Source of the DNA: Snodgrassella gandavensis
GTDB taxonomy: Bacteria; Pseudomonadota; Gammaproteobacteria; Burkholderiales; Neisseriaceae
Direction: 5' to 3'
NCBI RefSeq assembly: GCF_914768025.1
Contig: NZ_CAJZCE010000009.1
Span: 1 to 64,000, forward strand
Length of the DNA stretch: 64,000 nucleotides
Each line of letters starts with the position of its first letter. Position 1 is the stretch's first letter. The notes beneath the pieces are model-generated. The model searched no databases. It saw only the letters and a list, made by a program, of their open reading frames with translations, and was not told where the DNA came from. Shown one piece after another: positions 1,871 through 6,255 of the stretch. Made by a program: the position numbers and the translations under genes.

Positions 1871-3406
1871 TTAATTTTTATCTGCTGGCGCGCCCAGAAA
1901 TAGGTGATAAGCAGCATTGTGGGTTTGTTCCTGATAGGTGTAGCCTACATTATCCAGAAAAATCTGGAATTTTTCTGTATCTGCTGGGGGAATGTCCAAA
2001 CCCACGAGTACGCGGCCGAAATCGGCGCCATGGTTGCGATAGTGAAACAGGGTGATGTTCCAGTCTGATTGCATATGAAGCAAAAAGCGTCTTAATGCGC
2101 CTGGCCGTTCGGGGAATTCAAAGCTTATCAGATGCTCGTTGGCTACTTTGCTGGTGCGTCCGCCTACCATATAGCGGATGTGCAGTTTGGCCATTTCATT
2201 ATGGGTTAAATCGAGCGTGGGCAGACCATTGCTGTTTAGTTCTTGTGCAATGTGCTGTAAGTCAGCGATGTCATTACTTTGAATGCCGACAAAGATATGG
2301 GCTTTGTGGTCGTCGCCATAGCGATAGTTAAATTCGGTAATGCTTCTGTTGCCAATTAAGTCGATAAAGTGGCGGAAACTGCCCGGCTTTTCTGGAATGG
2401 TAACGGCAAAGATGCCTTCATGGCCTTCTGATAGTTCACAGCGCTCAGATACGTGGCGTAGCTGGTGAAAATTTATGTTTGCGCCACTGGTTACTGCTAT
2501 CAGGTTTTGATGTTGGCACTGATTACGGCCAATATAGGCTTTCAGGCCGGCCAGTGCCAGTGCGCCGGAAGTTTCGGTTATGCTGCGGGTATTATCGAAT
2601 ATATCTTTTATGGCGGCACAGATGCTATCGGTGTCTACTATGATGATGTCGTCAAGCAGGTCTCGGCATAGGGCGAACGTTTCTTCACCCACTAGTTTAA
2701 CGGCGGTGCCATCGGCAAATAGGCCGACTTCTTTCAATTCTATGCGTTTGCCTGCGGCAATGGATTGTTTCATGGCGCAGGCGTCTTCGGTTTCTACGCC
2801 GATAACTTTGATTTCAGGGCGTACGTTTTTTATGTAGGCTGCTATGCCGGCGGCGAGGCCGCCACCGCCGATAGCGACAAAAACGGCGTCTATTGGTTTG
2901 GGATGCTGCCGCAGTATTTCCATGCCGATGGTACCTTGGCCAGCAATTACGTCTGGGTCATCAAAAGGCGGAATGTAGGTTAGGCCGCTTTGAGCAACTA
3001 GCTGCATGGCATGGTTGTAGGCATCGTTGTAGGATTCTCCCGCCAGTACTACTTTGCCACCGCGTTTTTTGACGGCATCTATTTTTATTTGTGGGGTGGT
3101 TTGGGGCATGACGATGGTAGCTTCGCAACCTAGTTTCTGTGCTGAAAGTGCTACTCCTTGGGCGTGATTGCCAGCAGATGCGGTAATCACGCCTTTTTTC
3201 AGGGCACTGCTTTGCAGTTTGGCCATTTTGTTATAGGCACCACGGATTTTAAAGGAGAATACGGGTTGTAGGTCTTCTCTTTTCAGCCAGATGTGGTTGT
3301 TCAGGCGGTCGGACAGGTTGGCAGCATAATCGAGAGGAGTTTCGATGGCCACATCGTAAACAGTGGCGGTAAGAATACGAGTAAGGTAGTTTGCGTGATT
3401 GTTCAT
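1871..3406 (-). CDS. ilvA: Threonine dehydratase, biosynthetic (threonine ammonia-lyase)
   Basis: It deaminates L-threonine to 2-oxobutanoate, the first committed step of isoleucine synthesis, in the cytoplasm. At 511 aa it has the usual length of the long, feedback-regulated form. The N-terminal PLP fold carries the lysine motif SFKIRGAYN (K53) and the glycine-rich cofactor loop IGGGGLAAG near residue 180. The C-terminal third (about 330-500) contains two ACT-like regulatory halves, shown by EKPGSFRHFIDLIG and ERPGALRRFLLHM, which in this family bind isoleucine and valine. It starts at an ATG with no strong ribosome site. The divergent PBP5-like gene begins about 200 bp away. No other ilv genes are nearby. 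Confidence 0.95.
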   Translation of the reverse strand: MNNHANYLTRILTATVYDVAIETPLDYAANLSDRLNNHIWLKREDLQPVFSFKIRGAYNKMAKLQSSALKKGVITASAGNHAQGVALSAQKLGCEATIVMPQTTPQIKIDAVKKRGGKVVLAGESYNDAYNHAMQLVAQSGLTYIPPFDDPDVIAGQGTIGMEILRQHPKPIDAVFVAIGGGGLAAGIAAYIKNVRPEIKVIGVETEDACAMKQSIAAGKRIELKEVGLFADGTAVKLVGEETFALCRDLLDDIIIVDTDSICAAIKDIFDNTRSITETSGALALAGLKAYIGRNQCQHQNLIAVTSGANINFHQLRHVSERCELSEGHEGIFAVTIPEKPGSFRHFIDLIGNRSITEFNYRYGDDHKAHIFVGIQSNDIADLQHIAQELNSNGLPTLDLTHNEMAKLHIRYMVGGRTSKVANEHLISFEFPERPGALRRFLLHMQSDWNITLFHYRNHGADFGRVLVGLDIPPADTEKFQIFLDNVGYTYQEQTHNAAYHLFLGAPADKN

Positions 3407-3608: not shown

Positions 3609-4751
3609 ATGATGAGAAATTTTTTTCGTTGGTTCTATACGGCTTTGCTGATGGGTGTTCTGCCATTAGCGCAGGCGGTGAGTTTGCCTGAAATCAATGC
3701 TGCTGCGTATGTGGTGGCTGATGAGCAAAGTGGCATGATTTTGGCCAGCCGGGATAAGGATGCGCGGATTGAGCCGGCAGCTTTGACAAAGCTGATGACT
3801 GCTTATTTGGTTTTTGATGCTTTGCATAGTGGTAAGTTGAAAGCGCAGCAACCGCTGAAGATTTCAACTGCTGGCTGGCACACGGATGGTAGCCGCATGT
3901 TTTTACAGCAGGGTGTAGCGGTAAATGTTGAAACGGTGGTGCAAGGTATGCTGGTTGTTTCTGCCAATGATGCAGCGATTACGTTGGCTGAAGCGGTTAG
4001 CGGGGGAGAGAAGGCGTTTGTACGGCGTATGAATGCGGAAGCACAGAAAATGGGGCTGGAAAATACCCATTTTGTTAATTGCACAGGCTTGCCGGCAGAA
4101 GGGCAATATAGCAGTGTGGGTGATTTGTTGCTGCTGGCACAGGCATTGGTGCGCGATTTTCCTCAATATCAGGGTTGGTTTGCTAAAAAGTCATTTTCTT
4201 ATAATGGGATTACTCAGTTAAACCGTAATTTGCTGTTGTTCCGGGATGATCAGGTGGATGGGTTGGCGGTGGGTTATACTATTAATGGCGGTTACAATCT
4301 GGCGGTGAGTAGTAAGCGCAATGAGCGTAGGGTTATTGCGGTACTGGTAGGTGCGGATAGCAGTGAGGCTAGAGCGGCTGAAGGCAGTAAGTTATTGAGC
4401 TGGGCGTTGACTTCTTTTAATACAGCCAGAGTGTATCCTGCCAGCCACAAGGTGGCAGATATCGCTGTTTATAAGGGGGCGTATGGTAAGGTAGCTGTGG
4501 GTTTTTTGCGTGATGCTTATGTTACTTTGCCATCTAATGGGACACAGCAGTTGTCAATTGAATTGGAAGCGGTGCAGCCGGTGGTAGCGCCGGTGCGTAA
4601 AGGGCAGGGTATGGGTACGTTGAAATTGCTGCTTGGTAAGCAGGTAGTTGCGCAGCAGGATGTGGTAGCACTGGATGATGTAGGTGAGGCCGGCTGGTTT
4701 AGCCGCTGGCTGGATGCTGTGTCTTTGTGGTGGCGCAGTCTTTTTAGCTGA
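3609..4751 (+). CDS. PBP5/DacA-family protein (peptidase S11) with substituted active site; probable pseudoenzyme
   Basis: This is a 380-aa protein with an export signal (hydrophobic residues 9-22, ending in AQA), an S11 D-alanyl-D-alanine carboxypeptidase domain (about 28-265), a PBP5 C-terminal beta domain (about 280-365) and an amphipathic tail rich in Trp (WFSRWLDAVSLWWRS) that would anchor it on the periplasmic face. Active family members remove the terminal D-Ala from peptidoglycan stem peptides. Here the SxxK motif reads A58-L-T-K61 (codon gct at 3780-3782), so the nucleophilic serine is absent. The KTG motif reads A220-V-G (4266-4274). Only SxN (S118-A-N120) is intact. The rest of the fold is conserved and the frame is unbroken, so this is more likely a retained non-catalytic protein than a decaying pseudogene. 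It may bind peptidoglycan or regulate other PBPs (inference). Confidence 0.88.
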   Translation: MMRNFFRWFYTALLMGVLPLAQAVSLPEINAAAYVVADEQSGMILASRDKDARIEPAALTKLMTAYLVFDALHSGKLKAQQPLKISTAGWHTDGSRMFLQQGVAVNVETVVQGMLVVSANDAAITLAEAVSGGEKAFVRRMNAEAQKMGLENTHFVNCTGLPAEGQYSSVGDLLLLAQALVRDFPQYQGWFAKKSFSYNGITQLNRNLLLFRDDQVDGLAVGYTINGGYNLAVSSKRNERRVIAVLVGADSSEARAAEGSKLLSWALTSFNTARVYPASHKVADIAVYKGAYGKVAVGFLRDAYVTLPSNGTQQLSIELEAVQPVVAPVRKGQGMGTLKLLLGKQVVAQQDVVALDDVGEAGWFSRWLDAVSLWWRSLFS

Positions 4752-4912: not shown

Positions 4913-4946
4913 AAAAAGAAACCCATCTGTAGATGGGTTTCTTTTT
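4913..4946. terminator. Bidirectional intrinsic terminator between the PBP5-like gene and purA
   Basis: A perfect 16-bp stem (AAAAAGAAACCCATCT and its complement) has a 2-nt centre and runs of T on both strands. It lies between converging genes, 11 bp past the purA stop, and can end transcription from either side. Confidence 0.9.
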
Positions 4947-4956
4947 TTTGCATTAA

Positions 4957-6255
<1,299 letters not shown>

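Follow-up and report, generated by a model that had tools for sequence, protein, structure and literature searches.

The gene studied here is the Snodgrassella gandavensis orthologue of neisserial dacC. It encodes a PBP5-family protein in which the nucleophile Ser of the SxxK motif is replaced by Ala and the KTG motif by A-V-G. Both replacements are shared by all Snodgrassella orthologues found, and the gene is under purifying selection in the core of the genus. Since the catalytic residues are replaced and selection nevertheless preserves the protein, it most likely binds rather than cuts. It is probably a membrane-anchored peptidoglycan-binding or scaffold pseudoenzyme; by analogy with Neisseria, the type IV pilus is the leading candidate for its setting.

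The window, that is, the whole stretch of DNA analyzed, comprises bases 1-64000 of contig C9 of genome G000 (2.5 Mb, rated 100% complete). Its nearest named relatives are Snodgrassella, bee-gut Neisseriaceae: four genomes share 90-95% identity with it, and a fifth shares 79%.

The dacC Locus and Its Product

The features of the locus, with the evidence for each, are the following.

1871..3406, - strand: ilvA-like neighbor, divergent from dacC (adjoins dacC in 62 of 73 family loci)
3609..4751, + strand: dacC orthologue, PBP5-family pseudoenzyme (translation, Pfam and NCBIfam profiles, predicted structure)
3609..3677, + strand: probable Sec signal peptide, residues 1-23, with A-Q-A (21-23) before the cleavage site (hydrophobic stretch, by eye)
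3672..4358, + strand: Peptidase_S11 domain spanning residues 22-250, domain I of PBP5 by prediction (Pfam, predicted structure)
3780..3791, + strand: former SxxK motif, now A58-L-T-K61 (alignment, 14 genomes)
3960..3968, + strand: SxN motif S118-A-N120, formally intact (alignment, 14 genomes)
4266..4274, + strand: former KTG motif, now A220-V-G (alignment, 14 genomes)
4371..4373, + strand: R255, retained (alignment)
4416..4685, + strand: PBP5_C domain II, residues 270-359 (Pfam, predicted structure)
4689..4748, + strand: C-terminal amphipathic anchor region, residues 361-380, with a low-confidence predicted helix at 369-379 (translation, predicted structure)
4913..4946, + strand: intrinsic-terminator-like hairpin of 15 pairs with a T tail, between dacC and purA (3 such sites found against 1.5 expected by shuffling)
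4957..6249, - strand: purA-like neighbor, convergent with dacC (beside dacC solely in Snodgrassella among the loci read)

The open reading frame 3609-4751 is translated into a PBP5-type S11 protein of 380 aa plus stop, whose motif regions read P-A-A58-L-T-K61, S118-A-N120, and D-G-L-A220-V-G. Translation thus bears out the first-pass annotation, which had placed Ala at the nucleophile position (GCT, 3780-3782) and A-V-G in place of KTG (4266-4274), and had considered SxN intact. The retained R255 is presumably the equivalent of E. coli PBP5 Arg248. Both domains are recognized by Pfam, S11 with 223 bits (cut-off 27.6) and PBP5_C with 55.5 bits (cut-off 21.2), and the best NCBIfam model is DacA with 260.8 bits, under its cut-off of 694. 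The predicted structure (mean pLDDT 80.8, pTM 0.80) has PBP5 and PBP6 among its nearest solved structures (H. influenzae 3a3j, TMt 0.94, 1.8 A rmsd; E. coli 6ntz, TMq 0.84), so that the PBP5 fold, annotated as intact over 380 aa, is also predicted to be so by this model. Thus the domains, the fold, and SxN of a PBP5-type protein are present, and the Ser of SxxK and KTG are absent.

The same fold and two-domain layout are found in E. coli PBP5 and PBP6 (DacA and DacC) and in P. aeruginosa PBP5 (4k91), all of them active DD-carboxypeptidases that carry SxxK, SGN, and KTG; in our alignment 4k91 reads SLTK, SGN, and KTG. With Ala in place of the nucleophile Ser and Ala-Val in place of the Lys-Thr of KTG, the Snodgrassella protein should be unable to cut terminal D-Ala or to be acylated by penicillin. 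The same Ser-to-Ala change has been made in the laboratory in A. baumannii PBP5/6a. This S121A mutant, engineered from an active enzyme by that single change, is described as having no activity when purified (PMC13059705).

The dacC gene stands alone between its divergent and convergent neighbors, which we take from their sequences to be ilvA (threonine dehydratase) and purA. A PBP5-type gene next to ilvA is the arrangement of neisserial dacC, and the window gene is its Snodgrassella orthologue. In the 11 of 73 loci where ilvA was not found, about 1.5 kb of each flank was searched in G010, G071, and G082, and the rest have short flanks or lie at a contig edge. At the start of the window, from 1 to about 1340 on the minus strand, the translation resembles, by eye, the N-terminal part of a filamentous-haemagglutinin/CdiA-like two-partner-secretion protein, cut by the contig edge.

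Conservation and Selection in Snodgrassella

Orthologues of dacC were identified in 13 of 14 Snodgrassella genomes, the exception being G007, which is 60% complete. All 13 have both Ala58 and Ala220, as does G081, the single genome of the sister genus g11; Ser58 or Lys220 occurs in none of the 13, and sister strains with Ser and KTG were not found. Across these 14 genomes (13 Snodgrassella and G081) Ala58 is encoded by four synonymous codons, GCT, GCA, GCG, and GCC. Lys61 is kept in 13 of them, Ser118 in 13, Asn120 in all 14, and the Val of A-V-G in 13; SxN is lost solely in G011, where it reads AAN.

Eleven of the 13 Snodgrassella orthologues have an intact open reading frame. In G011 (L022), a premature stop removes the C-terminal anchor, and the motifs read AALTQ, AAN, and ATG, with Gln61 and Ala118. 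In G009 (G009:C9:64933-66032; L023, L025), a frameshift splits the gene and P-G-A-L-V-K replaces SxxK; this could be real decay or, possibly, an assembly error.

The ratio omega, estimated by maximum likelihood under the GY codon model, comes to 0.099 in eight DacC of core Snodgrassella; 11 motif-intact DacC of Neisseria give 0.064, six gonococcal-type DacC 0.206, and eight Snodgrassella PbpG 0.026. The Nei-Gojobori medians agree (0.103 for core Snodgrassella, 0.092 for intact Neisseria, 0.187 for gonococcal-type, and 0.029 for PbpG), being computed from pairs with dS of 0.02-1.5, which kept 26/28, 20/28, 15/15, 6/10, and 30/55 pairs. A dN/dS near 1 was thus not observed. The suggestion that the gene encodes an exported pseudoenzyme kept under selection is therefore supported by the comparison, with the qualification that the divergent copies in G009 and G011 are damaged.

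Selection also appears to extend to the former active site. None of the nine former motif positions varies among the 11 intact Snodgrassella copies. When nine domain-I positions were drawn at random from those without variation in active DacC, all nine were likewise invariant in 622 of 20,000 draws; hence simple erosion does not describe the remodeled groove, although part, perhaps all, of this conservation could come from structural constraint. The least conserved region of Snodgrassella DacC is the anchor, with 20% of positions invariant in 11 copies versus 75% in 11 active Neisseria proteins.

These data bear on three other accounts of the gene. An error of sequencing or assembly in either of the two Ala codons, 58 and 220, has a vanishingly small probability, as the identical residues occur in 13 separate Snodgrassella assemblies and nothing was found in its favor; concordance of the 13 assemblies together with an omega of 0.10 rules out both such an error and a plain pseudogene. 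DacC might instead be a relaxed remnant, a protein that lost its enzymatic purpose once trimming was unneeded and that is now weakly kept or disappearing. The frameshifted and truncated copies, the variable anchor, and an omega somewhat above that of active DacC would all fit such a remnant. We nevertheless regard it as unlikely, given an omega far under 1 over eight core species, the 11 intact reading frames, and the fixation of Ala58 and Ala220 in spite of synonymous codon turnover. Residual or altered catalysis, on a D-Ala-D-Ala-type or other substrate and using Lys61, Ser118, and Asn120, could account for the retention of these residues and of the groove; it is considerably less probable still, because the Ser-to-Ala change is by itself sufficient to kill the activity of the A. 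baumannii homologue (PMC13059705), and here the Lys and Thr of KTG are gone as well.

Degenerate DacC in Neisseriaceae

PBP5-type genes were read in 73 of the 83 Neisseriaceae genomes surveyed, with the DacC locus of G058 left out. Nine other genomes, G007, G069, and G072-G078, have a PbpG-type gene as their best S11 match. Of these, G069 and G072-G078 belong to genus g9; G072-G076 and G078 carry a second S11 match, and none was found in G069 and G077. The search of G007 with the window protein gave no PBP5-type gene.

Ser58 is lost in 30 of the 73 Neisseriaceae DacC, which requires at least seven changes on the gene tree when three outgroup rows are counted as intact. At least one motif is degenerate in 37 of the 72 DacC rows with both ends readable. 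Outside the family, 40 PBP5-like loci of the order were compared, a non-random sample hand-picked among the higher-scoring matches from 200 genomes; Ser is kept in all 40 and all three motifs in 38. Motif loss is thus frequent in Neisseriaceae and rarer (2/40) in the loci picked from the rest of the order.

The gene tree was built with the motif columns removed and the C-terminal reading frames of G009 and G064 left out. Snodgrassella and g11 form one clade (100/99) apart from the degenerate Neisseria groups. In AU tests, joining this clade to the G027/G062/G047/G050 group was rejected (p 4e-5), and joining it to the G057 group was marginal (p 0.059). Its union with the gonococcal-type group was not rejected (p 0.087; p 0.306 after removal of 11 long, partial, or outgroup rows). 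The inactivation of Snodgrassella DacC is likely independent of the gonococcal loss; as the tree alone gives no proof, independence rests on genus membership, local synteny, and the residue patterns, ALTK with AVG versus ALTQ with KAG.

Further comparison with neisserial DacC (N. gonorrhoeae NGO_0443 and N. meningitidis) shows both likeness and difference. These proteins also belong to the PBP5/6 family and have lost SxxK and KTG. The gonococcal-type genes read here lie beside ilvA, as in Snodgrassella, and SxN is their best kept motif. Snodgrassella DacC (12/13) keeps Lys61 and loses the KTG Lys, whereas the gonococcal-type proteins have Gln61 and K-A-G. Unlike the neisserial case, zapD and mreC are retained in Snodgrassella, and most of its genomes are without the partner DacB.

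DacB and Other DD-Peptidases

The S13 enzyme DacB had no match in G000 at E 0.001, nor in 10 of the 14 Snodgrassella genomes, G000 and the single-contig G001 and G006 included. As DacB was found at E < 1e-98 in G007, G009, G010, and G013, and also in G081, the search would have detected it in G000. G012 is among the genomes without dacB, although the gene is present in G010 and G013, the two genomes closest to it by DacC; this points to repeated loss of dacB. Over the family, DacC is degenerate in 23 of 45 DacB-positive and 14 of 27 DacB-negative rows, showing no link with DacB presence.

Two S11 genes are present in G000, dacC and pbpG. PbpG, a 324-residue open frame and therefore shorter than DacC, to which it is about 26% identical, retains the motifs SISK, SEN, and KTG. 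Replacement of DacC by an active paralogous twin was considered and rejected, as there is no second PBP5. No VanY and no PF00144 match was found in G000 at E 0.001; PF00144 matches, some of them fragments, occur in 10 of 14 Snodgrassella genomes. Three reading frames of 144-167 aa in G000 match Peptidase_M15_4 (G000:C9:109882, G000:C1:136328, and G000:C5:37976), and from their look we take them to be phage-type endolysins. PbpG is thus the only intact class C DD-peptidase found in G000 among the families searched.

In the absence of S13, DacC of G000 cannot work by directing DacB. With S13, VanY, and PF00144 all missing, the cell wall should be pentapeptide-rich, unless it is trimmed by PbpG or a class A PBP. 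The genome contains three high-mass transpeptidases, and class A PBPs can show some carboxypeptidase activity (PMC13059705), so the case for an absence of trimming in G000 falls short of proof.

Cell-Shape Genes

Most Neisseriaceae are rods, except for two coccoid lineages (PMC9395523). The loss of motifs in neisserial DacC has been connected, by the authors who described it, with a shift from rod to coccus (PMC6365954). In favor of inactivation following such a transition, degenerate copies are more common in zapD-negative (19/27) than in zapD-positive (14/39) Neisseriaceae genomes (66 of 72 rows, with the incomplete assemblies G010, G020, G052, G053, G054, and G055 omitted). However, the 14 zapD-positive genomes with a degenerate DacC comprise 12 Snodgrassella as well as G081 and G071, and four of the six omitted assemblies (G010, G052, G054, and G055) are likewise degenerate with zapD. 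The other two are intact with no zapD match, and eight genomes with intact DacC are zapD-negative. Moreover, 13 of the 14 Snodgrassella genomes have ZapD, all 14 have MreC, and G081 has both; this retention speaks against linking dead DacC to coccus shape. Only two (zapD) and four (mreC) independent pairs are available for association with the DacC state, too few for a statistical test. Gene content thus argues against the cell-shape explanation, which fits the Snodgrassella lineage poorly and which we consider improbable.

Possible Function of DacC

Neisserial DacC has been studied by experiment. The protein lacks active-site residues, N. meningitidis keeping SxN alone and N. gonorrhoeae no motif (PMC6365954); in G036 SxN reads CAN, consistent with the gonococcus. 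In the rod-shaped N. elongata, by contrast, DacC is described as apparently functional (PMC6365954). No Bocillin label was detected on gonococcal DacC (PMC10269775). A mutation of gonococcal dacC alone has little effect on sacculus composition, and in the dacB dacC double mutant piliation is drastically reduced; the authors suggested two possible roles for DacC, directing PBP3 (DacB) or serving as a scaffold in the assembly of pili (PMC6365954). A role of neisserial DacC in type IV pilus stability has thus been published. In mice, dacC insertion mutants of N. musculi were under-represented (PMC9140248). Colonization by Snodgrassella is reported to be aided by its type IV pilus genes, in a paper that cites a Tn-seq study (PMC11112851), and G000 has one secretin gene. 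In the part of the open-licence PMC literature searched, no report or experiment on Snodgrassella DacC was found.

For the Snodgrassella protein we infer catalytic inactivity, binding, and a pilus link together. DacC would be exported and held at the inner membrane as an anchored PBP5 body, with selection retaining its fold and remodeled groove. It would dock to stem peptides of the peptidoglycan or to protein partners, and position envelope machinery. The type IV pilus is the leading candidate for this machinery, because in Neisseria loss of dacC matters for pili, and these reportedly aid colonization by Snodgrassella. However, DacC and DacB act as a pair in the gonococcal model. No DacB was found in G000, where DacC would have to act without this proposed partner; thus the analogy with the pilus may not apply. 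The truncated copy in G011 and the frameshifted one in G009 indicate that the role would be dispensable or lost in some lineages.

Motif-dead DacC was already known in Neisseria, and Snodgrassella adds the retention of ZapD and MreC and the missing DacB. The two published explanations, loss of rod shape and direction of DacB, are therefore separable in Snodgrassella: the second is excluded for G000, and gene content argues against the first as a general explanation. Tentatively, dead DacC may be a recurrent, selected binding adaptor of the PBP5 fold in Neisseriaceae, which arose several times by loss of catalysis, independently of both cell shape and DacB. In the Snodgrassella cell, without a dedicated DD-carboxypeptidase of the families searched and with a wall predicted to be pentapeptide-rich, it might read or organize untrimmed stem peptides.

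The rise of pentapeptide levels in Neisseriaceae has been discussed without DacC, dacC being absent from the main text of that paper (PMC4498754), and the muropeptide prediction made here bears on why these levels rose. What was an oddity of pathogenic Neisseria is now seen in a bee symbiont, and a one-step method of engineering such symbionts has been published (PMC11389375). If dead DacC matters in S. alvi, its non-catalytic job could be studied there without the partner enzyme.
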